DNA from: Gammaproteobacteria bacterium
GTDB lineage: Bacteria > Pseudomonadota > Gammaproteobacteria > DSM-19610
Length of the DNA: 64,000 nt
Assembly: GCA_026197075.1 (NCBI GenBank)
Contig: JAPHQV010000010.1
Location: 1 to 64,000, forward strand
Direction: 5' to 3'
A program made the position numbers and the translations under genes. Below, piece by piece: positions 13,885 to 35,459 of the stretch (positions within the stretch are counted from its first letter, which is position 1; each line of letters opens with the position of its first letter). Below the pieces are notes generated by a model, which saw nothing but the letters and a program-made list of their open reading frames with translations, was not told where the DNA came from and searched no databases.

Positions 13885-15418
13885 GCGGCTCTGTCACCAC
13901 AGAGGCGAACTCCCTCAGTCGCTTCTCGACTACCTCGATATCCTCACCAGGTCGGACCATGGAAGTCAGGCGTACCAATGCGCCATCGGTGCGGTTCCGG
14001 GTCAAGGCATCCCACAGCAGATACCATTTGACTGCAAATTCATTGGTGATATTTCGGTCACGCTGTTTGAACCAGTAGTAGACCAGTTGGCGATGCTCGC
14101 CCATAGAGATGACAAAGCGGTTGACCGGCAACCCGCCATTCAGCTCAATACGATTGCGTGACTCGACCCGCCAACCACCACCAGGCAGGCAGGAGGCAGG
14201 GGAGTGGGCAGCAGCGCCGGACCGCTGTGAATCGTAGTAAGCCACGTAGAAGTTCACCGACGCATTGCCGTTAACATAATCCGCCAGAATATAGTCATCC
14301 AGCTTGAGCACATCCTGCACGATGTTATCCATCGCCTTGTTATGTCCGCGCCAACCCCCATCCAACTCGTCTGGGAAGGTTACAAACTCGGGGCGTTCAG
14401 GAATGTATTCATCACGCCCCCCCAGCCCCAGGGACCCTGCCGCACCGAGGGCAAGGAAAGCCAGGCCCACCACAGCATGGGGCGAAACACCACGCTGGAT
14501 CCTGGGTGCCTCGTCTGGCGTTGGCTCGGGAAAATCCATGCCGAACACCTCCCGGAAGGGACGGCGATCCTTGCCAAACCGCGACAGAATCCACATTTCC
14601 AGGATCAGCAGCACCACACAGGCCATGAACACGATCCAACCTTCAAAATCATGGAGGAATCCTTCGGCCTGTTCGATCCCGTAATATTCCACCAGCACCC
14701 CAATAACGCCGATGCGAAAGCTGTTCATGAACACAGTCAGTGGAACACTGGACAGAATCACCACCACCTTCTTCCATACCGCGGCCTGGTAGAAATAGGA
14801 CGCAATGATCGCGAGGGCAATCAACGGGAAGAGGTAGCGCAGACCACTGCAGGCCTCCACCACCTGCAGCTTGTACACCCCCAGATCGATGACATTGCCT
14901 TCCAGGTAGACACTGATGTCGAACAGGCGGATCACGGCCACGCCGATCTGGGAGGAAATCAGCTGTAACTGGGAGGAAAGGTTGTTAAAGACAAACCCCG
15001 GCAAGGGCACCATCAAAAACAGCAGCAACAGGGGAATGGCAATGATCTTGAAGGCCGCCCAGCCCATCAGCGCATAGGCGGCACCGATCAGGGCGATGAC
15101 GAAGCCATACTGGCTCACGGTGTAAATGGTGCTCAGTTGCCCGATCAGGATGATGAGCACGCCCAGCAACAGCAATCCCGCGCCCCACCAGGACCCCGTG
15201 AAAGGCATGGCCTCAAGCTTGTCCTTGCGCTGCCAGATCAGGAACAGCGTAATGAGCGGGATCATGTAGCCGTAGCCGTATTCCTCGCTGGTCTGCCAGC
15301 GGCTTTCCATGTCGATCAGCGCATCGAAGCTGGAACCGATAACCAGTAAAAGCCCAACGGCGACGATGGCCCACAAGATAACAGGGAAGCGGTAGACAGG
15401 TAGTAGACTGGATGGCAT
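13862..15418 (-). CDS. xrtD: Exosortase fused to EpsI domain (XrtD-like)
   Basis: A 518-residue membrane protein. Residues 1-280 form the multi-helix exosortase core with the proposed catalytic triad: Cys190 in VVEACSGLRY, Arg235 in NSFRIGVIG and His256 in FLHDFEGW. After a linker (about 280-310) and one more hydrophobic segment, the C-terminal part (about 330-518) is an EpsI-type domain with the SCLPGGGW motif. Exosortase-EpsI fusions of about this size are the XrtD type, linked in family databases to substrates ending in VPLPA-CTERM signals. This agrees with the VPVPAAVWLLGTG tail of the protein at 41440-42228. It should cleave the sorting signal in the inner membrane and hand the protein to a surface or polysaccharide attachment step. 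Confidence 0.88.
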   Translation of the reverse strand: MPSSLLPVYRFPVILWAIVAVGLLLVIGSSFDALIDMESRWQTSEEYGYGYMIPLITLFLIWQRKDKLEAMPFTGSWWGAGLLLLGVLIILIGQLSTIYTVSQYGFVIALIGAAYALMGWAAFKIIAIPLLLLFLMVPLPGFVFNNLSSQLQLISSQIGVAVIRLFDISVYLEGNVIDLGVYKLQVVEACSGLRYLFPLIALAIIASYFYQAAVWKKVVVILSSVPLTVFMNSFRIGVIGVLVEYYGIEQAEGFLHDFEGWIVFMACVVLLILEMWILSRFGKDRRPFREVFGMDFPEPTPDEAPRIQRGVSPHAVVGLAFLALGAAGSLGLGGRDEYIPERPEFVTFPDELDGGWRGHNKAMDNIVQDVLKLDDYILADYVNGNASVNFYVAYYDSQRSGAAAHSPASCLPGGGWRVESRNRIELNGGLPVNRFVISMGEHRQLVYYWFKQRDRNITNEFAVKWYLLWDALTRNRTDGALVRLTSMVRPGEDIEVVEKRLREFASVVTEPLANYVPD

Positions 15419-16957: not shown

Positions 16958-17590
16958 TCAGCACTTCCTTTTATAAATAAAAAAACGGTGGTAGGGTATT
17001 TCAGGAACTCGGTATGTATTAGCTAGTTCGAATCCTTGAGCAGCATCTAATAACCATTTTTGAATACTATTCAACTCATAGCCTTTTTTGTTGATTTCCC
17101 AGTAATGCTCGCCATCAAACTCATGTTTTTTGATTTTTAAAAATGGATTTTTTATATGAAAGCTCTTTTGACCAACCCTGGGGATATAAATACTATAAGG
17201 CCAGCAGGGTTCAGCATCCGGCAAACTAATAACCAGAGTATTTCTTGAAACTCTTGCCATTTCCTTAAATGCGGCAAGGCTCATTTCAATGGGCAAGTGC
17301 TCTAACATCTGAAAAGAGCAAACCAAATCGTAGCTGTTATCCGCTATAGGCATTTCAGTAGCCGAGGCAACAATATCAGGATTTAAATCCTCTGAGATAT
17401 CAAGAGTGTCGACATTTAGGCCAAATTTCTCAGCAACGACCTTGAACATGCCAGACCCAGGACCCACTTCTAACACCTTATCAGGCTGTAAACTCAGAAC
17501 CTCATCGAGCTGATGCCATACGCTGCACCATCGCCGCTTGTTCATATATTTCGAGAACAAATAATGTTCTTTTTCAACTTGTTTTTTCAT
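16958..17590 (-). CDS. Class I SAM-dependent methyltransferase
   Basis: A 210-residue protein with the SAM-binding motif I VLEVGPGSGMF, an acidic motif II region (LDISEDLNPD), and YDLVCSFQMLEHLP, typical of the Methyltransf_11/UbiE-like group. In a glycan island it may methylate a sugar, but small-molecule or lipid targets are possible. The ATG at 17590 touches the stop of the upstream flippase gene (TAATG), so translation is coupled. It is AT-rich like its neighbours. Confidence 0.85.
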   Translation of the reverse strand: MKKQVEKEHYLFSKYMNKRRWCSVWHQLDEVLSLQPDKVLEVGPGSGMFKVVAEKFGLNVDTLDISEDLNPDIVASATEMPIADNSYDLVCSFQMLEHLPIEMSLAAFKEMARVSRNTLVISLPDAEPCWPYSIYIPRVGQKSFHIKNPFLKIKKHEFDGEHYWEINKKGYELNSIQKWLLDAAQGFELANTYRVPEIPYHRFFIYKRKC

Positions 17591-18852
17591 TATCGTCTTC
17601 CCACAAGGTATGATTTTTTCAACACTGCCAATATGAGCACAAGATATGCCACGACACCAAACACACACATCAATGCAATTGCCAGCAAATCATCATTCCA
17701 GTAAACAAATCCTATCAATAGAGCAACAACCTTTGAGCCTGTACTAACAAGTTCATAGAGCAACAGCCATGGCTGCATGTTTAAAGAAGGCATAGCTGCA
17801 ACGCTGGGTTTATTGATGAATCCAAAAAAAAACCACAAGGCCAGCCACTGCGCATACTCCCCAGCAGTTACCCATTCCCCTCCAAAAACAAACGAGAAGA
17901 GCCACGGTCCAAAGGCAATCACTAACAAAAAAGGGATAGAACCAACCGCTGCAAGCGCCAGTGTTGCCCTCAAGATCAATCGAAAGAGGTTTTCCTTATT
18001 ATGCGCAGCTTCTGTTATACGTGGGTAGAAAACATCACCTACTGATTTTCCAATCAGAGCGGAAGGCACGCCCATCACTGTTTTACTCAGAGTGTAAAAA
18101 CCTGCCGCTGCCGGCCCAAAGAAGCTGGCCAGCATCAGGATGGGAAGGCTTTGGGATAGAGCATTTATTGTGACTTGGGGTGCTCGATAAAGTGGGAAAT
18201 CCCGGTGCCTTCTTGCCAACTCACTCAGGCTAGTATTATTTTCGCCATCCTTCTTCGGCATTGTTTTGCTTTTGCGGATTCCCGCCCACAACAACATCGC
18301 ATGAAAGGCTGATCCAAATGCCGCTACTACCACCAGCACAGCACCCACAGGGTGGAATAACCCCACTCCCGATTTTGTACTATTTATTAACAGCGCCTGA
18401 ATTACCGCAACTCTTGCGGTAATGCTGAAAAGTTTTTTACGAATGAGCCATTGCTGCGCAATCTCCGTACAGGCAACAAACAACATGGACAATGGGATCA
18501 GCATCACATAGGGTGCAATAGCTTCGGAGCCAAGCAACTCCATCAAGAGTTCACCGCTAGTAAGAAACATCACCGCTATCGCCATGGCTACCATCATTGC
18601 AATAAAAAAAGACAGCTTTGCTAATCCTTTAGCATCCCTGTCATCTTTTGGCAGAACGATAGCAATGGGGTAAGTCAACGCAGCAACAGGTGTTAAAATC
18701 GACACCAATGCCATAAACACCCCATAAAGCCCAAACGCTTCCGGATCGTACAAACGGGTGATTACCGGAGAAAAGGCCAGAGTGATTGCCTGCGCTGCGG
18801 CGGTGCCGCTGGCGACAATCGCAACATTTCGGGCAAATTTGCTTTGGATCAT
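17590..18852 (-). CDS. Oligosaccharide flippase family protein (Wzx-like)
   Basis: A 420-residue membrane protein of the polysaccharide transporter/MATE-like fold. It has about 12 hydrophobic segments, the start FARNVAIVASGTAAAQ, and the early loop SPVITRLYDPEAFGLYGVF that is common in Wzx-type flippases. It should move the lipid-linked repeat unit across the inner membrane. Low sequence conservation prevents naming a subtype. No clear ribosome-binding site precedes the ATG; the region upstream carries a transposase remnant. Confidence 0.88.
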   Translation of the reverse strand: MIQSKFARNVAIVASGTAAAQAITLAFSPVITRLYDPEAFGLYGVFMALVSILTPVAALTYPIAIVLPKDDRDAKGLAKLSFFIAMMVAMAIAVMFLTSGELLMELLGSEAIAPYVMLIPLSMLFVACTEIAQQWLIRKKLFSITARVAVIQALLINSTKSGVGLFHPVGAVLVVVAAFGSAFHAMLLWAGIRKSKTMPKKDGENNTSLSELARRHRDFPLYRAPQVTINALSQSLPILMLASFFGPAAAGFYTLSKTVMGVPSALIGKSVGDVFYPRITEAAHNKENLFRLILRATLALAAVGSIPFLLVIAFGPWLFSFVFGGEWVTAGEYAQWLALWFFFGFINKPSVAAMPSLNMQPWLLLYELVSTGSKVVALLIGFVYWNDDLLAIALMCVFGVVAYLVLILAVLKKSYLVGRR

Positions 18853-20111: not shown

Positions 20112-22544
20112 TTATACTGGCAAGTCTTGCAACTCTCGTCGTATGGCCGAAAAATCCGGGGCAATCAATTGCCATTGGGGATGCTTTTGTTTATTGGTGT
20201 AATCCCGAAATACCCAAGGCTCGTCATCGATTTCCTTCATCATGGATTTATATTGGGTCTCATTATCGTCCGCTTGCTGCAAAGCAAGCAGGCGCAAGGC
20301 TCTTGCATCCTCAACTCGCCCGTCGCGGGCCAGATTCTGGATCAAGATTTTGAACTGGTTCATGTCAGCATATGCCTTGGCAGCCTTGGTCATTGCCCAG
20401 TATTGTATAAAGTAAGGGTATGAAAAGTCGTCAAATATTTTCCTTCCAAGCGCCTGCTGTTCGCCATGGTACTCCCAAAGGTCATCCATCGCCTTTACAG
20501 CCCGGTCTATCGCCTGTTGGTTTCGCTCAACAAGTTCCGGGACAATGCTGCGATTGAGTTTTTTCGTTGCCTCATAAGGATCTACCGCGACCTTCCAGCT
20601 CATATGCCCGTTGAAAACTTCCTTCATATACTGCCCAGCCTCGCCGCCCCAAAGACCAACGGCGGCACGCTCTGCCAGTATGTCCAAGGCCTCCTGGTCA
20701 TCCACATGTACACCACCGCTGGCTCGATATGCGGGATCATAATCACTCCAGCCGGGGAACTTCGTATTCCATGAAAATTCCGCGCCAGTCACTTGGATCT
20801 GCTCATCGAACCACTGGTAGTCCAGCGTGTTGACCCAAACCATATCATCTTGGCGTGCCTCGAAATATCCGCTACCCAGGCTTCTGACGGCGCTCGCGAT
20901 CAGCGGCCGTATACTTCTCGTATAATGCGCGGTCTCCCAATAAATCCACATCGGTCTGCCTTGGTACATATCGAAGTATGCACCAAGACGATCCCTGTTA
21001 TCTTCACGCACACACATCCGAACAGAAGGATCTATTGCGGCATTTATCTCTCTCATCCAGTTTTTTAGCTCATCAATCGCGATTGACACCTTCTTTTCTG
21101 CAGAAGGCCCAGCACCCAGCCGGAGCAATTTCATTGTTTCGGCCGGATCAAGGTATACCGCACTATACGGGTACGCCACTAGTACAACTTCCTTATCGCG
21201 CTTCTTGAACTCCTGCACATAGATATTAAACATATCGATATCGGCCTGAGCGCGATTATTTCCATACTTTTCTCGCGTGAGCCGATCACGTTTTGACCAC
21301 ATTTCAGGATCAGCGATGCCTCCCGCATCGACTGCATGTACAAAGGCCAAATCAAAACCAGCCCTGCGCAGGAATTCGCTCATATTTGCCGCTTTGTTTT
21401 TGTGCAGATCATGCCGTGCCCATGAATGATAATTCCCGCGCCTCTTGTCCACCATCATGTCACGAAATCCAGGTCGGTCATCATCCTGACCAACCCTGCC
21501 TAGCCTTACCTTGCCATTGTGCATCGTCCTTATACCCCTGATGTGGGCATATTCGCTTACCATATTGGCCATTTCCATTTCTTTTGCCGACACGGGAAGT
21601 GTATCTGGTTTGCTGGAGAATTCTTTATGTCCAGTCGTATGACGAAACACCGCGTTTCCCTTCATCCGGAACATCCAATCCATGTATTTTTTCATTTGTT
21701 CCAGATGAGCGGAAGCGTTCCCGCTGGAAACATAACGCGTGTGGTACAGGCTTTGAAACTGCCCAAGCTGACGGTGCTTGTAATCGGGCCAATCCAGAAC
21801 ACTGGCCGGGAAAAGAATGACTTTTCCATTTTCTTCTGTCATTAGATAACGCAGGGTCACGGCAGCATACATCATCCCCATTTCACCGCGCCCGGAAAGG
21901 ACAATCCCGTCATCCTGTGGGTAGATACCATAGGATTGATCCGTCTTGGTAAGCACCGAGTCGTCCGGCTGATCCATTGTAAAGATATTAGGCCAGTGAT
22001 TTTCAATCACAATGTTGTAGGCGCCCGCCTTTTTTGTACTGGATACCGCAAACTTCTTTTGAATCTGCTTAGAAAAATCGTCCATCCGTGATTGAATTTC
22101 ATTCACCGCAACATCGCTTCGGGCGGTCCGTGTGTCGACAACGATAACGACTTCCTTCTCGCCAACACCCGACAAGACCACTGGATCCTGTTCGAAGGCT
22201 ATTCGTTTGGGGACGGGCAACAGCCTTAAATTGCGTTTCTTCAATTCTTGCCAATTTTCTTGGAGTATCTGGGTGCCCGGGTCCCCCTTCCATGTTTGTG
22301 ATGGTATCGAGTCTTGATTGATTTCTCCCTCGCCTGCAATACTTGCATACGGAAAGAGCACTGTCATGAGTAGCATCGAAAACAAAAATGCCATGATGAT
22401 CGTGCTTATATAAGGCGACGATAGAAACGCCGATAATCGATATATAAAGTCTTGCCCCTTGACTTGCATGCCAGTTAACGCGCCCCCACCACCACAAGAT
22501 GCGCTCGAGATGCCAAATACAACCTTTACCATATTAATTTTCAT
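20112..22544 (-). CDS. Secreted GH20/GH84-like glycoside hydrolase superfamily protein
   Basis: A large protein (810 residues from the ATG at 22544). The first 75 residues contain one strong hydrophobic segment, a signal or membrane anchor. The next region (YGIYPQDDGIVLSGRGEMGMMYAAVTLRYL, then LDWPDYKHRQLG) resembles the N-terminal beta domain and domain junction of GH20 and GH84 hexosaminidases. The middle has barrel-like blocks (LAFVHAVDAGG, IYWETAHY) and a late block GAEFSWNTKFPG like the end of a GH84 barrel, then a helical tail. The exact catalytic pair could not be assigned. It probably trims or degrades the periplasmic polysaccharide. An ATG at 22469 is an alternative start; 22544 has GAGG about eight bases upstream. 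Confidence 0.6.
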   Translation of the reverse strand: MKINMVKVVFGISSASCGGGGALTGMQVKGQDFIYRLSAFLSSPYISTIIMAFLFSMLLMTVLFPYASIAGEGEINQDSIPSQTWKGDPGTQILQENWQELKKRNLRLLPVPKRIAFEQDPVVLSGVGEKEVVIVVDTRTARSDVAVNEIQSRMDDFSKQIQKKFAVSSTKKAGAYNIVIENHWPNIFTMDQPDDSVLTKTDQSYGIYPQDDGIVLSGRGEMGMMYAAVTLRYLMTEENGKVILFPASVLDWPDYKHRQLGQFQSLYHTRYVSSGNASAHLEQMKKYMDWMFRMKGNAVFRHTTGHKEFSSKPDTLPVSAKEMEMANMVSEYAHIRGIRTMHNGKVRLGRVGQDDDRPGFRDMMVDKRRGNYHSWARHDLHKNKAANMSEFLRRAGFDLAFVHAVDAGGIADPEMWSKRDRLTREKYGNNRAQADIDMFNIYVQEFKKRDKEVVLVAYPYSAVYLDPAETMKLLRLGAGPSAEKKVSIAIDELKNWMREINAAIDPSVRMCVREDNRDRLGAYFDMYQGRPMWIYWETAHYTRSIRPLIASAVRSLGSGYFEARQDDMVWVNTLDYQWFDEQIQVTGAEFSWNTKFPGWSDYDPAYRASGGVHVDDQEALDILAERAAVGLWGGEAGQYMKEVFNGHMSWKVAVDPYEATKKLNRSIVPELVERNQQAIDRAVKAMDDLWEYHGEQQALGRKIFDDFSYPYFIQYWAMTKAAKAYADMNQFKILIQNLARDGRVEDARALRLLALQQADDNETQYKSMMKEIDDEPWVFRDYTNKQKHPQWQLIAPDFSAIRRELQDLPV

Positions 22545-22749
22545 GCACAACCTCGACATAACAGATGGTGTGCTCAAACTCCAAGCGCAACCAGTGCAGG
22601 TGTCACCCGACAGTCGACCAGAATAGATAAAGGCCGTTCGTATATATGACACCGATAATACTTCCAATAAGGAACTCAATGATTAACAACAGAGCAATTT
22701 CAATGCCAAACAACTTGTCCGGCGAAATACCAGACATGAACCCCGGAAT
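22545..22749. other. Gap with no supported gene
   Basis: About 205 bases between the GH-like gene start and the small frame at 22750. The GH-like frame stays open leftwards to 22679 but without family similarity, so this part is more likely leader DNA. No repeat of the known families, tRNA or strong terminator was seen. Confidence 0.45.
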
Positions 22750-22873: not shown

Positions 22874-24343
22874 TTACCCGCCCATGCCAATGCGACCATC
22901 GCGCTTCGGCCTCAGGATACGCGCCTTCCCAGGAGCCCCGTCGTCGCATTCCATCGCAACGCTAGGTGTGACTAAATCCGCCCTGCCTGTCACTGCGCGA
23001 TTCATACCGGCGCGCTCCCTGGCATAGATATATACAAGAACAGACAGAAACAGCAGCATTGAATATGAATGGATTGTAATATCCTGACCAGTAATGGTTC
23101 TAAAGAACTGTACGATCATGACGGCCAGGATTTCCATATAATAGGCATTCTGTGCGCTGTACTGACGCCATGACCGCCTGAGAAAGCGGCTAAAGATTAC
23201 CCAAAAACCCACAACCACGCCAAGCAGCCAAGGCATGAACCCCAATATCCCTCCATTCAGCAAAACCGTAAGGTACGCATTATGCGGCGCCAGTATTGAC
23301 TTGCCAGTCGCGTAAAATCCGTGCCCCAAAATCGGGGACTTGAGAAATAGATTCCACGAGGTAGACCACGCCCCAATCCTGCCACTCATGGTTTCCAGCT
23401 GCTGATCATCCACGCCTCGTCGCATGTATTCGGAAAATCCATCGATCCAGTCGCCGACGGAACCTGTAAGCGTGAACAGCGCCAGAAAAAAGGCCGATGT
23501 TCCAACGATTGCATAACGAAAAGGCCTCATTTCCCTCACAAAGAAAGCCATAAACAAAACAGCGATTAATGCGCTTATAATCGACGTTCGACCTTGCGAA
23601 AGCACCAATGTAATAGCGCCGGCTGAGCCCAAGCCAAGGTAAAGCATTTTCCGACGGAGCTGCTGTACCGATAACATTCGGCGCAGTGAAATAACAAAAA
23701 CCACTGCCCCGACATAACTAAGGGTATTTGGCCCAAGATCCGGCCAGCCCCTTAGCATGAAGCCAAATACTCCAGCGCTTGCCATATGCGTAGCATCGGG
23801 GGCCAGCAACCCGCCAAGCATTGCTAAAAAAGATAGGAGTGCGAAGTAGACATACACCAAGTTGAACAACAACTCAGGGTATTTTGCATTAATGAGGGGC
23901 TTCGTCGCCATGACTGCGAGCACTACAGCCACGATCACAGAAGCCGCCTTGAACAGGAAAAGTGCAGGATAAACTGATACCGGCGAAGTAAGCACGCCCA
24001 CAGTGGAAAACATCAGTAGCATTATAAAAGGAAAGCGTAAATTACGAATATCAAATGATCGGCTCGCCATAAGCAACATGATCAAACCTGCGATGGCTAT
24101 AGAAGCAATCTGCAACATTGATGAAGCATCTATACTTACAGCCCCTGCCGTGCCACTTGAACGACCAAGCCAGTTCCCAAGCCCGAATAACATCACTAGC
24201 CAAACCATCGCGGCCCACCTGGCATCGCGTGGAACTCTTCCGGGCAATGTCAATACATACTTCAAATTGAGTGCAACGCCGAGACAGCATAGTGCAATCG
24301 CAAAATAGAACAGTAAGTCGGCTAGTGCGGACATAGGTGTCAA
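22874..24343 (-). CDS. O-antigen ligase/polymerase family membrane protein
   Basis: A 489-residue protein with about 12 hydrophobic helices and a large periplasmic loop. After helix-rich sequence the motif SQGRTSIISALIAV appears, followed by the loop ending GHGFYATGKSILAPHNAYLT. This matches the Wzy_C/O-antigen-ligase pattern with conserved Arg, Gly-His-Gly and HN residues. In this cluster it could be a Wzy-type polymerase or a ligase joining the glycan to a protein or lipid; sequence alone cannot decide. The frame opens with TTG at 24343 (GAGG five bases before); an ATG at 24334 is also possible. Confidence 0.85.
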   Translation of the reverse strand: MTPMSALADLLFYFAIALCCLGVALNLKYVLTLPGRVPRDARWAAMVWLVMLFGLGNWLGRSSGTAGAVSIDASSMLQIASIAIAGLIMLLMASRSFDIRNLRFPFIMLLMFSTVGVLTSPVSVYPALFLFKAASVIVAVVLAVMATKPLINAKYPELLFNLVYVYFALLSFLAMLGGLLAPDATHMASAGVFGFMLRGWPDLGPNTLSYVGAVVFVISLRRMLSVQQLRRKMLYLGLGSAGAITLVLSQGRTSIISALIAVLFMAFFVREMRPFRYAIVGTSAFFLALFTLTGSVGDWIDGFSEYMRRGVDDQQLETMSGRIGAWSTSWNLFLKSPILGHGFYATGKSILAPHNAYLTVLLNGGILGFMPWLLGVVVGFWVIFSRFLRRSWRQYSAQNAYYMEILAVMIVQFFRTITGQDITIHSYSMLLFLSVLVYIYARERAGMNRAVTGRADLVTPSVAMECDDGAPGKARILRPKRDGRIGMGG

Positions 24344-24467: not shown

Positions 24468-25274
24468 TCATTCATGCTTTGGCGCTGAAAGCCCGAATTT
24501 TATAAAGTACTTAGCCATGCTTTTCACATGCATCCTCACGTGCTTTGAAAACAGGCTAAAGACCCCTCCCTGTATGCTTTTATGCTGACCGGAATGCACA
24601 ACTACTGATTGAGGGCAGTACATTACCTTTAGACCTAAGCTCCATGCGGTGTGGCACCAGTCAACGTCCTCCATATAGAGAAAGTATCTTTCATCCATGC
24701 CACCGAGTTTTTTTAATAGCGAAACCTTGACAAGCATTGCTCCACCAGAAACCCAGTCAACCGGACCTGTAACATCATGATCATACGAAGTCATCAAGTA
24801 CCGAACCTGTTCCGAATGAGCCATTGGAAGTCTGGAAAAAAAGCTCCTCACCAGAATAAATGTCCATGGTCGCGGAAAGCGTCGACATGAAGGTTGGACA
24901 GACCCATTATCATCGATGACTTTTGGTCCAGATATCACCCACTTCGGATCGCTCTCCATTTGTTCAATAATCGAAACTACACCAGCATCTGTCAGCAGGC
25001 AATCCGGGTTCAGGATGTAGACGTACTCGCCACGAGTTTCCTTGAGTGCGGCATTGACGCCACCTGCATAACCCAGGTTTCCCTGCGCCGCAACCAGCCT
25101 TGCTGCGCCCTCCATACGTCCCTCGTAAGTGTTTATTTGATCTTGTTTGTAGCAGGAATTGGAGAGCACAATCGACTCATGCTCTAACGAGCCAAGGTGC
25201 TCTTCGACAGACTCAATGCAGCGCAGCACATCATCCATGCAATGATATTCAATGATTATGATGCTTAACATCAT
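24468..25274 (-). CDS. Glycosyltransferase family 2 protein (rhamnosyltransferase-like)
   Basis: A 268-residue GT-A enzyme with N-terminus LSIIIIEYHCMDDVLRCI, GNLGYAGGVNAAL, YILNPDC (D-x-C/D metal site) and VDWVSGGAMLV, then ERYFLYMEDVDWC with the catalytic ED-x-D. This pattern is typical of WbbL-like rhamnosyltransferases, which fits the dTDP-rhamnose genes at 30-33 kb. It starts one base inside the stop of the Alg13-like gene (TAATG), so it ends the tightly packed six-gene unit. Confidence 0.9.
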   Translation of the reverse strand: MMLSIIIIEYHCMDDVLRCIESVEEHLGSLEHESIVLSNSCYKQDQINTYEGRMEGAARLVAAQGNLGYAGGVNAALKETRGEYVYILNPDCLLTDAGVVSIIEQMESDPKWVISGPKVIDDNGSVQPSCRRFPRPWTFILVRSFFSRLPMAHSEQVRYLMTSYDHDVTGPVDWVSGGAMLVKVSLLKKLGGMDERYFLYMEDVDWCHTAWSLGLKVMYCPQSVVVHSGQHKSIQGGVFSLFSKHVRMHVKSMAKYFIKFGLSAPKHE

Positions 25275-25753
25275 TATCGAACCCCGCCGGCCAGCATGCT
25301 TTGTATCGTATTGGAAATGTGCATAGGCAATGCCGATGTATCCAATTTTTTTACAGACATGCCACGGGCATTTTCGATCGCATCCAGAAGATCTTTTACA
25401 TCATACACGGGCGTGACCAAACCCTCTTGGGCGAATGCCTGCACCAACTCTTTTTGATCATCGACGCATTCGCCAAGATCATTTCTACGGGGCACCGCAA
25501 CTATTCTTGCTTCCTGGGAAATACAGTCGCTCAGACTCCCGTACCCACCTTGGCACACAACCACATCCGCAGCATTGATCAGCGTTAAAAGCTCCCCATG
25601 ATTCATAAAGGGACGGCAATCTATATGCTCATGAACTGACGTATTGCCTGATTGAGCGATCACCTTCTCCCCTGTGCGCTGGGCATACTGGCTCATCTCC
25701 GCAAGCAACCGGTCGAAAGGATATGGATTCGTCCCCAACAACACCAGGATCAT
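25274..25753 (-). CDS. Alg13-like glycosyltransferase catalytic subunit
   Basis: A 159-residue GT28 C-terminal-domain protein: MILVLLGTNPYPFDRL at the start and the donor-site region NAADVVVCQGGYGSLSDCI, as in Alg13, PssE and the C-terminal half of MurG. It should bind the UDP-sugar and form one active GT with the Alg14-like protein encoded just before it. The ATG at 25753 gives a four-base ATGA overlap with that gene and removes 18 non-conserved upstream codons. Confidence 0.88.
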   Translation of the reverse strand: MILVLLGTNPYPFDRLLAEMSQYAQRTGEKVIAQSGNTSVHEHIDCRPFMNHGELLTLINAADVVVCQGGYGSLSDCISQEARIVAVPRRNDLGECVDDQKELVQAFAQEGLVTPVYDVKDLLDAIENARGMSVKKLDTSALPMHISNTIQSMLAGGVR

Positions 25754-26208
25754 CCCAGCCGTCCTACATATATGGATTTTGGATATTGTTTTTGTAATGA
25801 ATGCCACTGCACATACGAAACATCGGCCAAACGATAAAGCAGCCTTCCGGTCTTAGACATCGTGGTAACACGAGCGCCTGACTCTACAAAAATGATCTTC
25901 GATCCATATATCCATCCGAACAGACAGGTCGGCAGGGCGATTCCCGCCCCTGTCGTCAGGATGACTCTTGGCCGCTCGCGCATAAAGATCCACAGGGACT
26001 GCACAGCGTTCTTCATATACCCAGGGATGCTTGTGTGGGGATCTTCCACATAATAGATCCTGTAGTCTTCAAGCCTATCCTTGATATGGGCATCCTGCTT
26101 GGTGACGAAGTAGCGATCCACATCGGTCTCCCTGGTCGCGGCCAGGGCTTCGGCAAGATGCCCGCCAGCAGAGCAGATCACGCACATCTGTTCCCTGAAA
26201 CGCCTCAT
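25750..26208 (-). CDS. Alg14-like glycosyltransferase membrane-recruiting subunit
   Basis: A 152-residue protein with CVICSAGGHLAEAL at the N-terminus, VILTTGAGIALPTCL, KIIFVESGARV, and a C-terminal YVQWHSLQKQYP. These are hallmarks of Alg14/PssD proteins, which bind acceptor lipid and recruit the Alg13 partner. The genes on either side overlap it by four bases each. The pair probably transfers a sugar to an undecaprenyl-linked acceptor on the cytoplasmic face. Confidence 0.9.
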   Translation of the reverse strand: MRRFREQMCVICSAGGHLAEALAATRETDVDRYFVTKQDAHIKDRLEDYRIYYVEDPHTSIPGYMKNAVQSLWIFMRERPRVILTTGAGIALPTCLFGWIYGSKIIFVESGARVTTMSKTGRLLYRLADVSYVQWHSLQKQYPKSIYVGRLG

Positions 26209-26861
26209 GATTGCCTGTGTGCCGTCACATGGCCGTAGCGATTATCCAGTAGCCCCGATCGGTCCTGTAGAATGACCGGGTGCTCATCTTCCCGCAGTCG
26301 TTCCAGGCCACGTGTACCGATACAGCAGTAAACATCCAATGGAAACACCATGAATAACGCCATGAAGCGCTCACGAAGGCAAAACCACGCCCCTGCCACG
26401 CCATTAATGAATCCACTACGCACGATCACCCTTACATCCAGGTCTGAGAACTCATGCAATTGCCCCCTACAGAAACTACCGTATATTGCCACACCATCGA
26501 TAAACCTCGATCGTGCAGCTTGCTCTTTTAGCCTTTGCACATAGCGGTCAAAATCCTCCTCGGTCTTCGGCACCGGGTAAACATAGCGCATAAGCACAAA
26601 AAAATGCCCATTAAATATCCAGTTAAGACTGTGAGCCGCCAACAGGCAAGACAGGATCATTCCCGGCCTGCCCCACCAATCGAAAATCCAGACAAGCAAA
26701 AGAGTCGCCAGGACATCCAGTGCCAGCTTCATGCCTATCTCGTAGGCATTCATGTAGCGCATGCCCTGCAACAGCCAGTTGGAAGCGATCACGCCCGCGC
26801 GCGACTGTGCCAGCACACCTAGCCAACTACCTTCCAGTCGTCCCTGCGGCTTCAGCTTCAT
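26205..26861 (-). CDS. Membrane-embedded nucleotidyltransferase-fold protein
   Basis: A 218-residue protein that joins a predicted two-helix membrane segment (about residues 43-93) to a minimal nucleotidyltransferase domain. The motif GSFCRG (128-133) followed by SDLDVRV (139-145) is the G-S-x(10)-D-x-D pattern of polymerase-beta-type transferases, and LDVY near 175 could give the third acidic residue. It lies between the Alg14-like and kinase genes with four-base overlaps on both sides. Its substrate is unknown; a membrane lipid or lipid-linked sugar is possible from the architecture. No named family was recognised. Confidence 0.7.
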   Translation of the reverse strand: MKLKPQGRLEGSWLGVLAQSRAGVIASNWLLQGMRYMNAYEIGMKLALDVLATLLLVWIFDWWGRPGMILSCLLAAHSLNWIFNGHFFVLMRYVYPVPKTEEDFDRYVQRLKEQAARSRFIDGVAIYGSFCRGQLHEFSDLDVRVIVRSGFINGVAGAWFCLRERFMALFMVFPLDVYCCIGTRGLERLREDEHPVILQDRSGLLDNRYGHVTAHRQS

Positions 26862-27529
26862 TGACTCAATCCTGCATGTATTTCGGCCTGCCGCAGCAAA
26901 TTACTCAATTGCCCGTTGTTATCAATCGTATGCACATTCGCGCGTGATGATATAGCCTGGTAATGCTGGTAGCGCTTAATGAAATTCTGGTCCACACGAC
27001 CTTCTGGCCGAGCTTCAAGCACCTTATCCAGATCACGATTGACCAGGATAAGTCGCGAGCCAAGCGGCAAAAGCCGCAGGAATGCCTGACCGATCCGGCT
27101 TTCATGCAGAGTATCCATGCCAGTATCCACCATCACATCCACCAGTATGTCGTAAACATAGCGATCCAGTATCAGCACACTGCTGTCATTCCTGATTCTT
27201 GGCATGATCTTAAGATACTTGACTCGAAGTGTGTCCAGGTATTGAAAAAGGACGAACAACCAAGAAATCACCCTGGAGCGGTGGAAATCATGGTAGCCAA
27301 CCCGGATACCGTCATGGGTTTCATAGCGAGTCAACCCGATCAAACGACACAGTCCGAGCAAGGGCTTGGAAAGCACATGATTGAAGCGCAACCATTCCAC
27401 ATGAACCTTGAAGCCCTGTTCGCGCAGCTTTTTGGCAAGATGCTCCGAGACCGTCGACTTTCCCGAACCATCGATACCCATCACATAGATCACCCTCGGG
27501 ATGGATTGCCTGGAATGGGTGTCGATCAT
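26858..27529 (-). CDS. Thymidylate-kinase-like P-loop kinase
   Basis: A 223-residue P-loop NTPase with Walker A GIDGSGKST (18-26), then LILDRYVYD where thymidylate kinases have the DRY/DRW motif, and RPEGRVD in the lid area. Overall size and motif order match thymidylate kinase, but a glycan-operon location and otherwise divergent sequence argue against a housekeeping dTMP kinase. It may phosphorylate a sugar, nucleoside or lipid-linked intermediate. Four-base ATGA overlaps tie it to the GT4 gene before it and the nucleotidyltransferase after it. Confidence 0.75.
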   Translation of the reverse strand: MIDTHSRQSIPRVIYVMGIDGSGKSTVSEHLAKKLREQGFKVHVEWLRFNHVLSKPLLGLCRLIGLTRYETHDGIRVGYHDFHRSRVISWLFVLFQYLDTLRVKYLKIMPRIRNDSSVLILDRYVYDILVDVMVDTGMDTLHESRIGQAFLRLLPLGSRLILVNRDLDKVLEARPEGRVDQNFIKRYQHYQAISSRANVHTIDNNGQLSNLLRQAEIHAGLSQ

Positions 27530-28713
27530 GCCAATAGCGCCTCAGTCACTGCCTGTCTACCCACCGATTCCCAGTCAGGATAGTTGCGCATGAAATCACG
27601 GGCATTCTGGCCAAGCCGTTCACGCAGGTCTTTGTCCTCTACCAACACCAGCATCGCATCAGAGAAGGCTTGTGTGTCCAACGGGTCGACAACCAACCCT
27701 CTGTCCTCGATCAATTCGGGAATACCATCGATTGGTGTACCGATTACAGGCTTACCGCGCGCCAATGCTTCGAGTATGGCAATAGGGACATCCGATGGCA
27801 CGATCACGAATGGCAGCACCGCAACATCGCACGCTTCCACATGGGCTCGCACCTGTTCACGGCTCAACCATCCACCAATCACGGTTACGTTATCCGTCAA
27901 ACCAGCCTGATCAAGTTGGGTGCCGATCTGCTGCATTTTATGTTCATCCGCGCCACGTGCCAGGACTACCAATCTCGCATTGGCCGCGGTCTTGGAAATG
28001 CGTGAAAAGGCTCCCATCACGGCATCGAATCCGCGGATCCTACGCACTGCCCCAAAATACAGGAAGGACACATCGCCTTCTCGATGGCCGAGCCGAGCCT
28101 GTTCTCCCTGCAAGGTTTCTGGCGCAACGGTTTTCCGGTCTTCGGCATCGATGCCTACGCGCAGTAAGCTTAGTTTTTCCGACCGCACTCCGATTGCGCG
28201 CAGAACCTGCTGATTGGCTATGCTTTGTACAAATATTTTATTAATCAACTTATCGTTTAGCATGCGCGCGAACAAGTAACGCGGCACCAAGCGTTGCTTC
28301 CACAACATCCCAAGCTCATCGAATGGTACACCCGCACGGCTGGCCCGTAGCAGCTGCCGATACTCGTACAGCGGACAGGTAATGAGCGCATATTTTTCGC
28401 AACCAATTTTCTTCAAGGTTGGCCAATATGCTATCGTTCGCGGCGTCACGCTCCACCAGAGTTGTTGCGGCGTATAGCTTTCAATAAGGCCTTGGAGCTC
28501 TGTTTGTCGACGTATCGATAGGAGGTTTGTTTTGACAACAGAAAAACCTTCCTCCCACCATTCCTCGCCCCTTGGTTCCGGCCCTTCCGTAATCATGACG
28601 ACCTTGTGACCGACCGAAATATAGCGCGCAATTTCATATAAGTAGCGCCATGGCTGCAGACGGACGTTTTCCCGTGATAGCCCGTTGGCGACAATAACAA
28701 TGCAATTCTTCAT
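27526..28713 (-). CDS. Glycosyltransferase family 4 protein
   Basis: A 395-residue GT-B enzyme. The C-terminal domain shows FLYFGAVRRIRGFDAVM, VTVIGGWLSREQV, and PSDVPIAILEALARGKPVIGT, the GT4 donor site with its distal Glu, then GIPELI. The N-terminal domain is divergent. It is the first gene of a six-gene unit running to 24468, in which most neighbours overlap by four bases. About 240 bases of non-coding DNA lie upstream, so the operon promoter should be there. Confidence 0.88.
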   Translation of the reverse strand: MKNCIVIVANGLSRENVRLQPWRYLYEIARYISVGHKVVMITEGPEPRGEEWWEEGFSVVKTNLLSIRRQTELQGLIESYTPQQLWWSVTPRTIAYWPTLKKIGCEKYALITCPLYEYRQLLRASRAGVPFDELGMLWKQRLVPRYLFARMLNDKLINKIFVQSIANQQVLRAIGVRSEKLSLLRVGIDAEDRKTVAPETLQGEQARLGHREGDVSFLYFGAVRRIRGFDAVMGAFSRISKTAANARLVVLARGADEHKMQQIGTQLDQAGLTDNVTVIGGWLSREQVRAHVEACDVAVLPFVIVPSDVPIAILEALARGKPVIGTPIDGIPELIEDRGLVVDPLDTQAFSDAMLVLVEDKDLRERLGQNARDFMRNYPDWESVGRQAVTEALLA

Positions 28714-28954: not shown

Positions 28955-29851
28955 CTATAGAGCCCTGGATTGCTGAAGCAGCATGCTCATAAGATAGACT
29001 CCTTGAGAAGTCGCATGGAAGTCATCATCCACTTTTCTGACCCCGACGCCCCTGTATGTAAAACCAAACGCGCGATTGCCAGGCAGAGTCACGATTTCGC
29101 TTAAATCATTCCACCCCCCCTCCTGGCTCTGCGCGCCGATTACTCTTTTTACCCACACCGGTTTGACCAGATCATCTCGTTCCGACTCAACGAGAAGCAA
29201 GGTTCTCTGGATATAGATATCCAGCACTCTGGGATCCCAAAACAATTGACTTCTTATTTTCGACTCCAGACCGCGCTCAATCTGTTCGATATCCGGCAAC
29301 AGACCGCACTCGCTTCGCTTCATCATTCGGATCCCCATCAACTGATGAGTTACACAGGCCTGGCGGAATGGATGGCTATCACAAAATTCAGGGGCGTTCT
29401 GCTCCGAGATATCTGCATACTCACCCAGACCCTCATCACAGCTTATCGCATAGATGAAATGCTTGTTGTAGTAAGGCATCCCCTCAATATCCTGATATCG
29501 AACGGGAACCCATGCCGCTTTATAGAACAGCATTCGCCATACATTGTTAATGTTATTTTCCAGATACTGGCTTTCATACTTTGCGAAAAGGGTTTCGAGA
29601 TAGTCGTCTTTTGTCAACTCGGCGCTTCGCTTGACCATCCACCACAGAACCGGACTCGGGACACGAAGAATCTCGGCCTCATTTCTCTTCAACCAGCCTA
29701 TGCCTAATCGCAGCGATTCCTCGACCTCTTCATAACTCAGATCTTCAACCGACCTGTTGTTCCACCAAAGCGCATACCCATACATCATGCTTATAACGAT
29801 CAGGGCAGCAAGAATAATCGTGGCAATTCTTGACAACATATACCGCCTCAT
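28955..29851 (-). CDS. Unrecognised membrane-anchored protein in polysaccharide island
   Basis: A 298-residue protein with a short basic N-terminus and one hydrophobic helix (IATIILAALIVISMMYGYALWW), so it is probably anchored in the inner membrane with its bulk in the periplasm. The body is helix-rich with many aromatic residues. The C-terminal third has QSQEGGWNDL and DDDFHATSQGVYLMSMLL, which recall the Q-x-x-GGW and H-x-T repeats of alpha/alpha-barrel proteins such as polyprenyl cyclases and some polysaccharide lyases. That is only a resemblance. The start codon is ATG at 29851, just inside a TTG. No function is assigned. Confidence 0.7.
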   Translation of the reverse strand: MRRYMLSRIATIILAALIVISMMYGYALWWNNRSVEDLSYEEVEESLRLGIGWLKRNEAEILRVPSPVLWWMVKRSAELTKDDYLETLFAKYESQYLENNINNVWRMLFYKAAWVPVRYQDIEGMPYYNKHFIYAISCDEGLGEYADISEQNAPEFCDSHPFRQACVTHQLMGIRMMKRSECGLLPDIEQIERGLESKIRSQLFWDPRVLDIYIQRTLLLVESERDDLVKPVWVKRVIGAQSQEGGWNDLSEIVTLPGNRAFGFTYRGVGVRKVDDDFHATSQGVYLMSMLLQQSRAL

Positions 29852-29939
29852 CAATAGACGGGCTCAGACATCCAGCCCCCACATTTCACACTATTAATCC
29901 AAGTTGTGCTCCCCCGGGGTGTTGGTGGAGCAACAACCG

Positions 29940-31115: not shown

Positions 31116-31988
31116 CTATCCTGGGTCCGTCCCCGCAGTCAGCATGGCCCGCAGGCTAGTACGCCAGTGGGGGATGGGAGCGGGAAGCAGGGGGCGGATT
31201 TTTTCCTTGCTCAGGACCGAGTAGGCGGGACGGCGGGCGGGGGTGGGGTAGTCGCGGGTGGGGATGGGCAGCAGGCGCTGCAGGCACAGGTCCTGACCCA
31301 GCGCCCTCGCCTCTTCCACCACCGCCAGGGCGAAGTCGTACCAGGAGGCGACACCTTCGTTGGTGAAGTGGTAGGTGCCGCTGGCGTCCTGGCGCATCAG
31401 CGCCAGCAAGGCGGTGGCAATGTCGCGGGTCCAGCTCGGGGTGCCGATCTGGTCGTCCACCACCTTCAACTCCTCGCGCTCGCCGGCCAGGCGCAGGATG
31501 GTCTTGACGAAATTATGGCCATGTTCGCCATACACCCAGGCGGTGCGCAGGATCAGCGCCTCAGGCAAGACCTCGCGCACGGCCCGTTCGCCGGCCTCCT
31601 TGCTGGAGCCGTAGGTACCCAACGGTTTAACGGCATCCTCTTCCCGGTAGGGGTTGGACTGGTCGCCGCCGAACACGAAGTCGGTGGAGACCTGCAGCAT
31701 GCGCCCGCCATAGTCCTGCACGGCGCGGGCAATCGCGCCGGCGGCGACGGCATTCACGGCATGAGCCAGTCCGGGTTCGCTTTCCGCCTTGTCCACCTGG
31801 GTGTAGGCGGCACAGTTGACCACCCAGTCGGCCCGGTGGCGGGCAATGGTGGCGGTGATGGCATCGCCGGGGCCGGACAGGTCCAGTTCGTGGCGGGTCA
31901 GGGCGACGGTGTCGATCCCCTCCTCCGCCAGCAGCAGGCACAGCTCATGACCCAGCTGGCCGGCTGCGCCGGTGACCAGTACCTTCAT
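31116..31988 (-). CDS. rfbD: dTDP-4-dehydrorhamnose reductase
   Basis: A 290-residue SDR-fold enzyme catalysing the final NADPH reduction to dTDP-L-rhamnose. VTGAAGQLGHEL marks the nucleotide site; STDFVFGG, YGSSKEAGE (Tyr/Lys pair) and LRTAWVYG are characteristic of RfbD/RmlD. The start overlaps the stop of rfbC by four bases. Confidence 0.95.
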   Translation of the reverse strand: MKVLVTGAAGQLGHELCLLLAEEGIDTVALTRHELDLSGPGDAITATIARHRADWVVNCAAYTQVDKAESEPGLAHAVNAVAAGAIARAVQDYGGRMLQVSTDFVFGGDQSNPYREEDAVKPLGTYGSSKEAGERAVREVLPEALILRTAWVYGEHGHNFVKTILRLAGEREELKVVDDQIGTPSWTRDIATALLALMRQDASGTYHFTNEGVASWYDFALAVVEEARALGQDLCLQRLLPIPTRDYPTPARRPAYSVLSKEKIRPLLPAPIPHWRTSLRAMLTAGTDPG

Positions 31989-32545
31989 GTATTCGCCTCG
32001 TATCGCGGCAGTTCCGCGTCCAGCTCGCGCAACAACTTGTTGGCCGCGTCCTTCTCCGATACCTGGAAGTTATCGCCCGGCCAGGCGATGCCGATGTCCG
32101 GGTCATCCCAGCGCACGCCATGTTCGGTTTCAGGGGCGTAGTAGTTGGTGCACTTATAAAGGAAATCGGCGGATTCGCTCAGTACGCAAAAGCCATGGGC
32201 GAATCCGGGTGGCACGTAGAGCTGGCGATGGTTCTGCCCGGTCAGCTCGTAGCCGACCCACTGGCCGAAGGTCGGCGAGCCCTTGCGGATGTCCACGGCC
32301 ACGTCGAACACGGCGCCCGCTGTCACCCGCACCAGCTTGCCCTGGGGCACCTGCAGCTGGTAGTGCAGGCCACGCAGCACGCCCTGGCGCGAGCGCGAGT
32401 GGTTGTCCTGCACGAAGATCGCGTCCAGGCCCTGCTCGGCATACTTGCGTGCATGCCAGCTTTCCATAAAGAAGCCCCGCTCGTCGCCGAACACATCGGG
32501 CTCGATGAGCAGCACCTCGGGTATACGGGTCGGGATGATCTTCAT
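31985..32545 (-). CDS. rfbC: dTDP-4-dehydrorhamnose 3,5-epimerase
   Basis: A 186-residue cupin-fold epimerase. It contains [20 protein letters not shown] with the catalytic His, [16 protein letters not shown], and [13 protein letters not shown], all standard for RfbC/RmlC. It is sandwiched between rfbA and rfbD with four-base overlaps on each side, so the three are one translational unit. Confidence 0.96.
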
Positions 32546-33571: not shown

Positions 33572-35314
33572 TCACTCCGCCAGGTAGCCTTCGCGCAGCA
33601 GGTAGAGATACAGCTCCTGCACCGCCTCCATTGCGCTGTACTGCGAAGTGTCGATGCGCAGCTCCGGCGTCTCCGGTATCTCGTAGGGATCGCTGATGCC
33701 GGTGAACTCCGGAATCTCGCCACGCCGAGCCTTGGCGTAGAGTCCCTTGCGGTCGCGCGCCTCGCACACCTCCAACGGGGTGGCCACGTGGATCTCGATG
33801 AAGGCGCCCTGCTCCTCGATCATTTCGCGCACGGCGCGGCGGGTGCTGTGGTAGGGCGCAATGGGCGCACAGATGGCGATGCCGCCGTTCTTGGTGATTT
33901 CGCTGGCGACGAAGCCGATGCGACGAATGTTGAGGTCGCGGTGGGCCTTGGAGAAACCCAGCTCGCTGGACAGATTCTGGCGCACGATGTCGCCGTCGAG
34001 CAGCGACACGGGGCGGCCGCCCGCCTCCACCAGCTTGGCGTAGATAATCTTGGCGAGCGTGGATTTGCCCGATCCGGACAGGCCGGTGAAGAACAGGGTG
34101 AAACCCTGTCGGCTGCGCGGTGGGTATACCTTGCGCAGTTCGCGCACCACCTCGGGATAGCTGAACCACTCCGGTATGTCGTTGCCGTGGGCCAGGTCTT
34201 GTTTCAACTGGGCGTCGGTATATTCGTTGCAGTCCAGGCGCTGCTTCTCGATCTGCGAGACGGGCAGGAAGCGGTCCTTGCTGGGCACGTAGCACTGGGC
34301 CTCGACGGGAATCATCTGGATGTGCAGCTCATCCTGGTGCCGGGCAAGCAGTTCCTGGGAGGCATAGGGGGCGTAGAAGCCCTCGCCTGGATTGGCGCCG
34401 CCGTTGCCGTTGCTGCGCGGCGGTGGCGGGTAGGCGTGTTTGGGCCCCACGATCAGGTGCGAGCAACCATGGTTCTGGTGCACGATGGCATGCCACAGGG
34501 ATTCGCGCGGGCCGGCCATGCGCATGGCCAGCGGCAGCAGCGACAGGGCGGCGAGATTGTGGGGGAAATAGCGGCGGATGGCCTGGTAGCAGTGCACACG
34601 TGCGTAGTAGTGCAGGTCGCCGGGCTTGGTCATGCCCACGGTGGGGTGCAGCAGGATGTGGCCGCCGATCTCCTTGGCCGCCTGCAGGGTGATGTCGCGC
34701 TGCAGGCGGTGCATTGGCTTGCTGGTCTGGAAGGCCACCACCTTGCGCCAGCCCATCTTGGCGAACAGGGCGCGCAGTTCCTCGGGGGTGTCCCACAGGG
34801 TCTGAAATTCAAAGTGCACCGGTAGCTGGATCCCCTCCAGGGTGCCGCTGATGTAGGTGTCCTTCACCTGTTCGTAGAGATAACGCACGCCGGGGTGCTG
34901 GTCGGAGGTGGTGCCGTACACCGCCTCGGCCTCGCGGCGCTTGTCCGGCTGCCAGATGTCCCACACCTTGAGCACGGCGGGCATGAAGCCCTCGGCATCG
35001 CGCAGGGCGATGCGCAGGCCGGGCTGCAGCTTGGCGGCAAATGCCGCCGGCACATCCAGCACGATAGGCATGGGCCAGAGGGTGCCGTCGGGCAGGCGCA
35101 TGTTGTCCACCACGCCCTCGTAGGCCGCCTTGTCCATGAAGCTTTCCAAAGGCGAGAAACCGCCGCTCAGCAGCAGTTCCAGGTCGCAGGTCTGGCGCTG
35201 GGTCAGGGTCAGGGAGGGAAAATCCTTGGATTCGTCCTTCAGGTGCTCGGCGCCATCGGCGTCCACCAGCCGGCTGACCAGCCGGCCGCCATGGGGCGGT
35301 ACGAAATACTCCAT
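33572..35314 (-). CDS. APS kinase fused to a degenerate ATP sulfurylase domain
   Basis: A 580-residue protein with an N-terminal ATP-sulfurylase-like domain (about 1-395) and a C-terminal adenylylsulfate kinase domain (about 403-580). The kinase looks intact: GLSGSGKST (411-419), DGD (440-442), HRDLNIRRIGF, ICAPIAPY and GLYAKARRGEIPEFTGI. The sulfurylase part keeps PLAMRMAGPRE and IPEWFSYPEV. But the usual QTRNPxHRAH reads QTSKPMHRLQ (196-205), and GRDHAG reads GPKHAY followed by prolines (290-299). Residues that normally bind ATP and sulfate are therefore changed, and ATP sulfurylase activity is doubtful. The likely product of the kinase is PAPS. ATG 35314 follows GAGG. Confidence 0.85.
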   Translation of the reverse strand: MEYFVPPHGGRLVSRLVDADGAEHLKDESKDFPSLTLTQRQTCDLELLLSGGFSPLESFMDKAAYEGVVDNMRLPDGTLWPMPIVLDVPAAFAAKLQPGLRIALRDAEGFMPAVLKVWDIWQPDKRREAEAVYGTTSDQHPGVRYLYEQVKDTYISGTLEGIQLPVHFEFQTLWDTPEELRALFAKMGWRKVVAFQTSKPMHRLQRDITLQAAKEIGGHILLHPTVGMTKPGDLHYYARVHCYQAIRRYFPHNLAALSLLPLAMRMAGPRESLWHAIVHQNHGCSHLIVGPKHAYPPPPRSNGNGGANPGEGFYAPYASQELLARHQDELHIQMIPVEAQCYVPSKDRFLPVSQIEKQRLDCNEYTDAQLKQDLAHGNDIPEWFSYPEVVRELRKVYPPRSRQGFTLFFTGLSGSGKSTLAKIIYAKLVEAGGRPVSLLDGDIVRQNLSSELGFSKAHRDLNIRRIGFVASEITKNGGIAICAPIAPYHSTRRAVREMIEEQGAFIEIHVATPLEVCEARDRKGLYAKARRGEIPEFTGISDPYEIPETPELRIDTSQYSAMEAVQELYLYLLREGYLAE

Positions 35315-35459
35315 ATGCCTCAATCTCTTATTGGTTATGTTGCCCATCCTGGGACGGGGCGGGGCCAGGGACCTCGGGGTCCTCTTCCTGCGATTGTGAC
35401 GCTATCGGCCCAGAGACGCTTGATATTAGGGGGAATGGCGGGGCGGGTAAAGCCGGCGG

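Follow-up and report, generated by a model that had tools for sequence, protein, structure and literature searches.

A conserved kinase-nucleotidyltransferase unit associated with glycosyltransferases in a gammaproteobacterial exopolysaccharide locus, and its possible role in decorating lipid-linked glycans

The first 64,000 nucleotides of contig JAPHQV010000010.1 from a gammaproteobacterium (assembly GCA_026197075.1), referred to here as the window, carry on the minus strand, at positions 24468-28713, a cassette of six open reading frames (ORFs) in the order glycosyltransferase family 4 (GT4), thymidylate-kinase-like kinase, nucleotidyltransferase (NTase), Alg14-like, Alg13-like and glycosyltransferase family 2 (GT2). 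The kinase and the NTase were found to constitute one conserved functional unit with the GT4, usually accompanied by the Alg13/Alg14-like split glycosyltransferase. As for its function, we tentatively propose, with a probability of about 0.4, that the two enzymes would successively modify a lipid-linked repeat unit, giving rise to a phosphate, phosphodiester or nucleotidyl substituent. The broader proposal, for which we claim rather less, is that of an undescribed module, present in at least five phylum-level groups, in which a lipid-linked-sugar kinase of thymidylate kinase fold and a two-helix polymerase beta-type (pol-beta) NTase may install a phosphodiester or nucleotidyl substituent in exopolysaccharide (EPS). 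All six ORFs that a preliminary description had placed in the cassette were present, and the families it had assigned to them held in Pfam and NCBIfam scans, where the GT4, the Alg14-like protein and the GT2 passed standard models, as follows:

27526-28713, minus strand: GT4-family glycosyltransferase, 395 amino acids, first gene of the cassette (PF00534, 83 bits)
26858-27529, minus strand: thymidylate-kinase-like P-loop kinase, 223 amino acids (Walker A G18xDGSGK24, fold model, conserved residues)
26205-26861, minus strand: membrane-anchored NTase of predicted pol-beta fold, 218 amino acids, its catalytic domain lying C-terminal to two membrane helices at the N terminus (PF01909, catalytic residues, model)
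25750-26208, minus strand: Alg14/PssD-like half of a split GT-B glycosyltransferase, 152 amino acids (PF08660, 79.5 bits; PssD model NF041549, 129.3 bits, above the cut-off of 110)
25274-25753, minus strand: Alg13/PssE-like catalytic half, 159 amino acids (PF04101, 27.3 bits, above the cut-off of 22; PssE model NF041548, 81 bits, below the cut-off of 120)
24468-25274, minus strand: GT2-family glycosyltransferase, 268 amino acids, starting in a TAATG junction (PF00535, 45 bits; weak match to the rhamnosyltransferase model TIGR01556, 35.6 bits)

To study the distribution of the two enzymes, alignments of the kinase and the NTase were run against 369 genomes drawn evenly from the class, and matches with E < 1e-80 and E < 1e-70, respectively, were taken as strong. 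A strong kinase was found in 8 of the 369 genomes and a strong NTase in the identical 8, which belong to seven families (by the tool labels, with the family of the window counted once); the hypergeometric probability of this overlap was about 1e-16, uncorrected for kinship. Weaker matches were obtained for the kinase in three other genomes and for the NTase in two, without any overlap. Among 72,556 plasmids, the kinase matched one and the NTase matched one, and both matches were adjacent genes of the same Herpetosiphon plasmid, which presents GT2, Alg14, Alg13, GT4 and GT4 before a gene annotated as "Thymidylate kinase-like" and then the NTase frame. This NTase reading frame of plasmid pHAU01 (L084:12566-13222, plus strand) is conserved, yet it is missing from the plasmid gene table.

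The preliminary description had staked its case on the two genes being found together elsewhere, and the pairing was indeed observed across phyla, in Pseudomonadota, Mariprofundus, Desulfocapsa, Bacteroidota and Chloroflexota. Among the named genomes retrieved with the kinase, the pair was present in Mariprofundus, Desulfocapsa, a metagenome-assembled genome (MAG) of Prevotellaceae and an uncultured bacterium; in two genomes of alphaproteobacteria, the NTase lay at another locus. An NTase search found none in the gammaproteobacterial MAG of locus L023, where the kinase is present, nor in a Sulfolobales MAG (L027) with a more distant kinase. When NTase-positive genomes were searched for the kinase, it was present wherever the NTase was strong, the exceptions being G206 and G009, with weak NTase matches. 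The distance matrices of 17 kinase-NTase pairs were correlated (r of 0.64), and none of 9,999 permutations reached so high a value.

The full order GT4-kinase-NTase-Alg14-Alg13-GT2 recurs in four genomes of the class (L013 to L016), in which relatives of the GT4 adjoin the kinase, and it is found in outline in Mariprofundus L022, where an acyltransferase is inserted, and in L026; the length of the overlaps differs among related cassettes, while the gene order is constant. In L017, L018 and Desulfocapsa L024 the NTase and the kinase are accompanied by GT4 genes, and no Alg13/14 was observed in the stretch examined. The Bacteroidota loci L081 and L082 contain GT4-kinase-NTase, with overlapping or abutting genes and without Alg13/14, and L077 also has the pair. 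Since Alg13/14 is absent from L017, L018, L024, L081 and L082, it is a frequent but not obligatory partner, and the constant core consists of kinase, NTase and GT4. The conserved kinase/NTase unit with glycosyltransferases thus held across phyla, with Alg13/14 present in most loci.

Fusions also join the two enzymes to glycosyltransferases. In L019 (8912-10048), the NTase and Alg14 form one protein of 378 amino acids (NTase, residues 1 to 209; Alg14, residues 226 to 378), and in three alphaproteobacteria (L025, L028 and L099) GT4 and kinase share a single reading frame, the NTase-Alg14-Alg13 set being encoded at a separate locus of the same genomes. From these fusions and split loci it follows that the kinase goes with the GT4 and the NTase with Alg14/Alg13. 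Co-occurrence and fusions together establish the coupling of the two enzymes. In a protein of 456 amino acids with a related kinase domain at its C terminus (L088:8427-9797, minus strand), the N-terminal half resembled a second nucleotidyltransferase; it failed the profile comparison with the cassette NTase family and was rejected as evidence. The GGSDIDI motif of that half recalls another family of nucleotidyltransferases.

The kinase has the thymidylate kinase fold but is not the housekeeping thymidylate kinase (Tmk). It scored below the cut-offs of both PF02223 (23.8 bits; cut-off, 27) and TIGR00041 (25.6 bits; cut-off, 83.25), and the housekeeping tmk was located elsewhere in the genome (C32:56546-57115) with 163 bits, compared with 22 for the cassette kinase; the possibility contemplated in the preliminary description, that this gene might be the sole, housekeeping tmk, could thus be discarded. 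An AlphaFold2 model built from 8 sequences reached a mean predicted local distance difference test score (pLDDT) of 91, and its best matches were thymidylate kinases over the whole length (Foldseek TM score of 0.6 to 0.7, 0.64 by query length, with E of 1e-8); a comparison with thymidylate kinase (VIA) gave a Z score of 18.7 and a root mean square deviation of 2.9 over 186 residues. The likeness to Tmk includes the fold, the Walker A motif GxDGSGK and the [DE]R motif. However, the profile alignment to the genome's own tmk spans only the N-terminal 35 residues, corresponding to the P-loop region, and past that point the conserved residues differ. Near-invariant positions in 18 kinase relatives, from Pseudomonadota to Chloroflexota, are the P-loop, W46-x-R48, R62, H80, D99, R123, D127 and D131; unlike Tmk, the cassette kinase conserves W-x-R, H80, D99, D127 and D131, which seem to stand in place of recognisable dTMP-binding motifs, and it is adjacent or fused to GT4. 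The Asp-rich conserved set leads us to infer an acceptor other than thymidylate.

Two further observations concern kinase genes. In the Prevotellaceae genome, one kinase gene (L029:9980-11623, plus strand) is broken by an in-frame stop, after which an acyltransferase-like protein continues in the same frame, and a second copy, that of L077, reads through. In a sister group of thymidylate-kinase-like genes (L085:6990-10172, L086:4003-5688 and L087:2419-5647), each member adjoins a GT4 gene, and those of L085 and L087 additionally adjoin a gene of the PF01663 phosphodiesterase/pyrophosphatase type (assigned by Pfam in L085 and by N-terminal likeness in L087); the three genomes contain the exosortase XrtD and no cassette NTase.

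The NTase matched PF01909 with 21.9 bits, just above the cut-off of 21, and no closer named family was found. The two membrane helices previously claimed for it were predicted in the structure model at residues 39 to 59 and 66 to 83, in coincidence with hydrophobic stretches. In an alignment of 19 relatives, the GS...DxD...D catalytic set was almost fully retained (G128, D140 and D142 in all 19; S129 and D176 in 18 each), and W29, Q32, E41, H77, N80 and N84 were conserved in the membrane part. The polar residues H77, N80 and N84, in or beside the second helix, would fit a membrane-bound substrate. Because the catalytic residues of both kinase and NTase are conserved, both enzymes are probably active. 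For the C-terminal domain, the best-ranked fold matches were the MNT, LinB and ANT nucleotidyltransferases, enzymes that place AMP on sugar-like hydroxyls or on protein, which we count in favor of the proposed glycan modification. The cassette NTase shares with MNT/MntA, LinB and ANT the GS...DxD...D set and may share the core fold predicted for it, but differs from them by its two-helix membrane domain and its glycan-assembly context, and neither a HEPN partner nor a passed resistance model was found. The MntA model NF047752 yielded 16.2 bits against a cut-off of 60, the genes adjoining the NTase are the kinase and Alg14 with no HEPN neighbor, and the best score among the antibiotic nucleotidyltransferase models (ANT, Lnu) was 11.8 bits against cut-offs of at least 340. 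No LicD family, to which LicD/fukutin phosphotransferases would point, appeared among the Pfam matches of the NTase up to an E of 1. No match was obtained in a single-sequence NTase scan of the genome contigs or in a scan of viral contigs with the NTase alignment, and matches in defence and phage libraries were only weak ones of P-loop or DxD type.

For their part, the Alg14 and Alg13 genes resemble PssD/PssE (Cps14F/G, Alg14/Alg13) in that two overlapping genes encode the two halves of the enzyme and in that the Alg14 half passes the PssD model. They differ in that the Alg13 half remains under the PssE cut-off, in their setting within the kinase-NTase module, and in the fusion of Alg14 to the NTase in one case.

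Taken as a modification of a lipid-linked glycan, the pathway would proceed as follows; its substrate, its product and the order of action are what we infer from the sequences. A WecA-type enzyme would start the repeat unit on polyprenyl phosphate, and Alg13/14, GT4 and GT2, working at the inner membrane face, would lengthen it. The GT4 would serve as docking site for the kinase (in some species the two are fused), which would phosphorylate a hydroxyl either of the GT4 donor or of the lipid-linked glycan as it grows. The NTase, held beside Alg14 by its two helices, would then move a nucleotidyl or phospho-sugar group to the phosphorylated site or to a neighboring hydroxyl, and the polymer would thus be exported with a substituent of phosphate, phosphodiester or nucleotidyl type. 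No description of such a kinase-NTase module was found in the literature searched. A precedent for the kinase-then-NTase logic, as a functional analogy with no claim of homology, may be seen in pseudomycoidin and similar systems, where the lasso-peptide kinase PsmK phosphorylates a serine and the nucleotidyltransferase PsmN then adds a hexose to the phosphate (PMC9266682, PMC8498205; reviews). Both cases would combine a kinase and a nucleotidyltransferase in sequence to give a phosphorylated, hexose-decorated group, but PsmK is an HPr-kinase-type enzyme and the substrate is a peptide.

Several observations weigh against this proposal. The NTase model, built from 5 sequences and with a pLDDT of 70, gave weak fold matches (E of 2e-3 or worse). 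In G206, a weak NTase match is accompanied by Alg14/Alg13 but by no kinase; therefore, the NTase may act without the kinase. The separate loci of GT4::kinase and NTase-Alg14-Alg13 in the three alphaproteobacteria are as compatible with two distinct tasks as with a single pathway. Finally, sequence alone does not separate a glycan substrate from a soluble one.

Two other explanations remain. The kinase might phosphorylate a sugar, polyol or amino alcohol, from which the NTase would make a nucleoside diphosphate (NDP)-linked donor for GT4 or Alg13/14, following the LicA-LicC phosphocholine logic. In favor of this, the two genes co-occur, a GT4::kinase fusion suits a kinase feeding a glycosyltransferase, and the acceptor-side Asp-rich set (D99, D127 and D131) would suit a polyol; however, donors are usually made by soluble enzymes, while the NTase bears two membrane helices in which polar residues are conserved, and its fusion partner is Alg14 rather than GT4. 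To our knowledge, moreover, the known NDP-sugar and CDP-alcohol synthases have other folds, which also counts against donor supply, and we consider it possible but doubtful. The NTase might also nucleotidylylate Alg14/Alg13 or GT4, as MntA AMPylates HepT (cf. also GlnE/GlnD), with the kinase reversing, gating or sensing the modification and EPS output being tuned in this way. The MNT antitoxins, which AMPylate a partner protein, are among its closest folds, and in the fusion the NTase is joined to what might be its protein target, Alg14. The fold of the kinase, on the contrary, is that of small-molecule kinases, and this, the missing HEPN partner and the score of 16 bits against 60 for MntA speak against such a regulatory function, which we regard as improbable.

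The remaining explanations are unlikely. That the kinase is a second dTMP or nucleoside monophosphate (NMP) kinase, supplying dTTP to the adjoining rmlBDCA or recycling NMP, with the NTase merely incidental, would agree with its fold and with the position of rmlBDCA just upstream. Nevertheless, the genome has a separate true tmk, the carriers L014 and L015 lack rml genes in the 19 kb examined, and an NTase whose strong matches fall in the same 8 genomes of the class as those of the kinase, and which hits the same plasmid, is not incidental, all of which makes nucleotide housekeeping very improbable. Chance proximity in a variable sugar island, with no common function, is conceivable in a region of low GC content that has probably moved horizontally and in which genes can hitch-hike. 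It is already largely refuted, and scarcely credible, given that the two genes are paired in at least five phylum-level groups, amid varied surroundings, that one and the same plasmid matched both, and that both enzymes occur fused to glycosyltransferases.

The cassette belongs to a Wzx/Wzy-type, XrtD-associated EPS locus. The window also holds further glycosyltransferases and rmlBDCA, the latter just upstream of the cassette, together with the following genes:

13862-15418, minus strand: XrtD-type exosortase (TIGR04152, 578 bits, above the cut-off of 400)
12232-13884, minus strand: WecA/MraY-type initiating phosphoglycosyltransferase (PF00953, 136 bits; TIGR02380, 170 bits, below the cut-off)
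17590-18852, minus strand: Wzx-type flippase (PF13440, 67 bits)
20112-22679, minus strand: ORF of 855 amino acids within the EPS locus, unmatched in Pfam and NCBIfam within the limits applied
22874-24343, minus strand: O-antigen ligase/Wzy-type polymerase (PF04932, 56 bits)
28955-29854, minus strand: ORF of 299 amino acids immediately upstream of the cassette, hydrophobic in a stretch near its N terminus, no Pfam or NCBIfam match
33572-35347, minus strand: bifunctional sulfate adenylyltransferase/APS kinase (820 bits)

Proteins similar to the sulfate adenylyltransferase/APS kinase are encoded near the cassettes of L013, L015 and L016, and sulfotransferase-like genes near those of L015 and L016, hinting that the EPS may be sulfated. 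Between 12 and 30 kb of the window, the GC content is 43 to 57%, compared with 60 to 72% on both flanks; the EPS locus is therefore probably of foreign origin, acquired horizontally. Among the strong carriers of the class, 7 of 8 had an XrtD scoring above the cut-off, a feature of XrtD/PEP-CTERM EPS loci that they share with the window, versus 31 of 274 genomes in the class draw (about 1e-5 for 6 of 7, without correction for kinship). XrtD is, however, commoner than the module, and some genomes that contain the module gave no match with the XrtD model.

The earlier claim of 4-base overlaps running through five genes, with a sixth starting in TAATG, was reproduced when the junctions were read out, with ATGA overlaps at GT4/kinase (27526-27529), kinase/NTase (26858-26861), NTase/Alg14 (26205-26208) and Alg14/Alg13 (25750-25753, counted from an internal ATG start of Alg13), and a TAATG junction with a 1-base overlap at 25274 between Alg13 and GT2. 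Such overlaps directly attest a tight operon, yet they are ordinary for this window, where rmlD/rmlC (31985-31988) and rmlC/rmlA (32542-32545) likewise share 4 bases. Thus, of the tight coordination read into them, the operon stands, but nothing peculiar to the cassette.

If the proposed modification is true, a small-molecule-type kinase would have lipid-linked glycans as its substrate and a membrane nucleotidyltransferase as its partner; for exopolysaccharides, no description of such a chemistry was found in the literature searched. Two unnamed protein families, which annotation either overlooks or at best labels thymidylate kinase-like, would thereby acquire a function, and phosphate-bearing EPS would become predictable from genomes, including those of XrtD/PEP-CTERM organisms.

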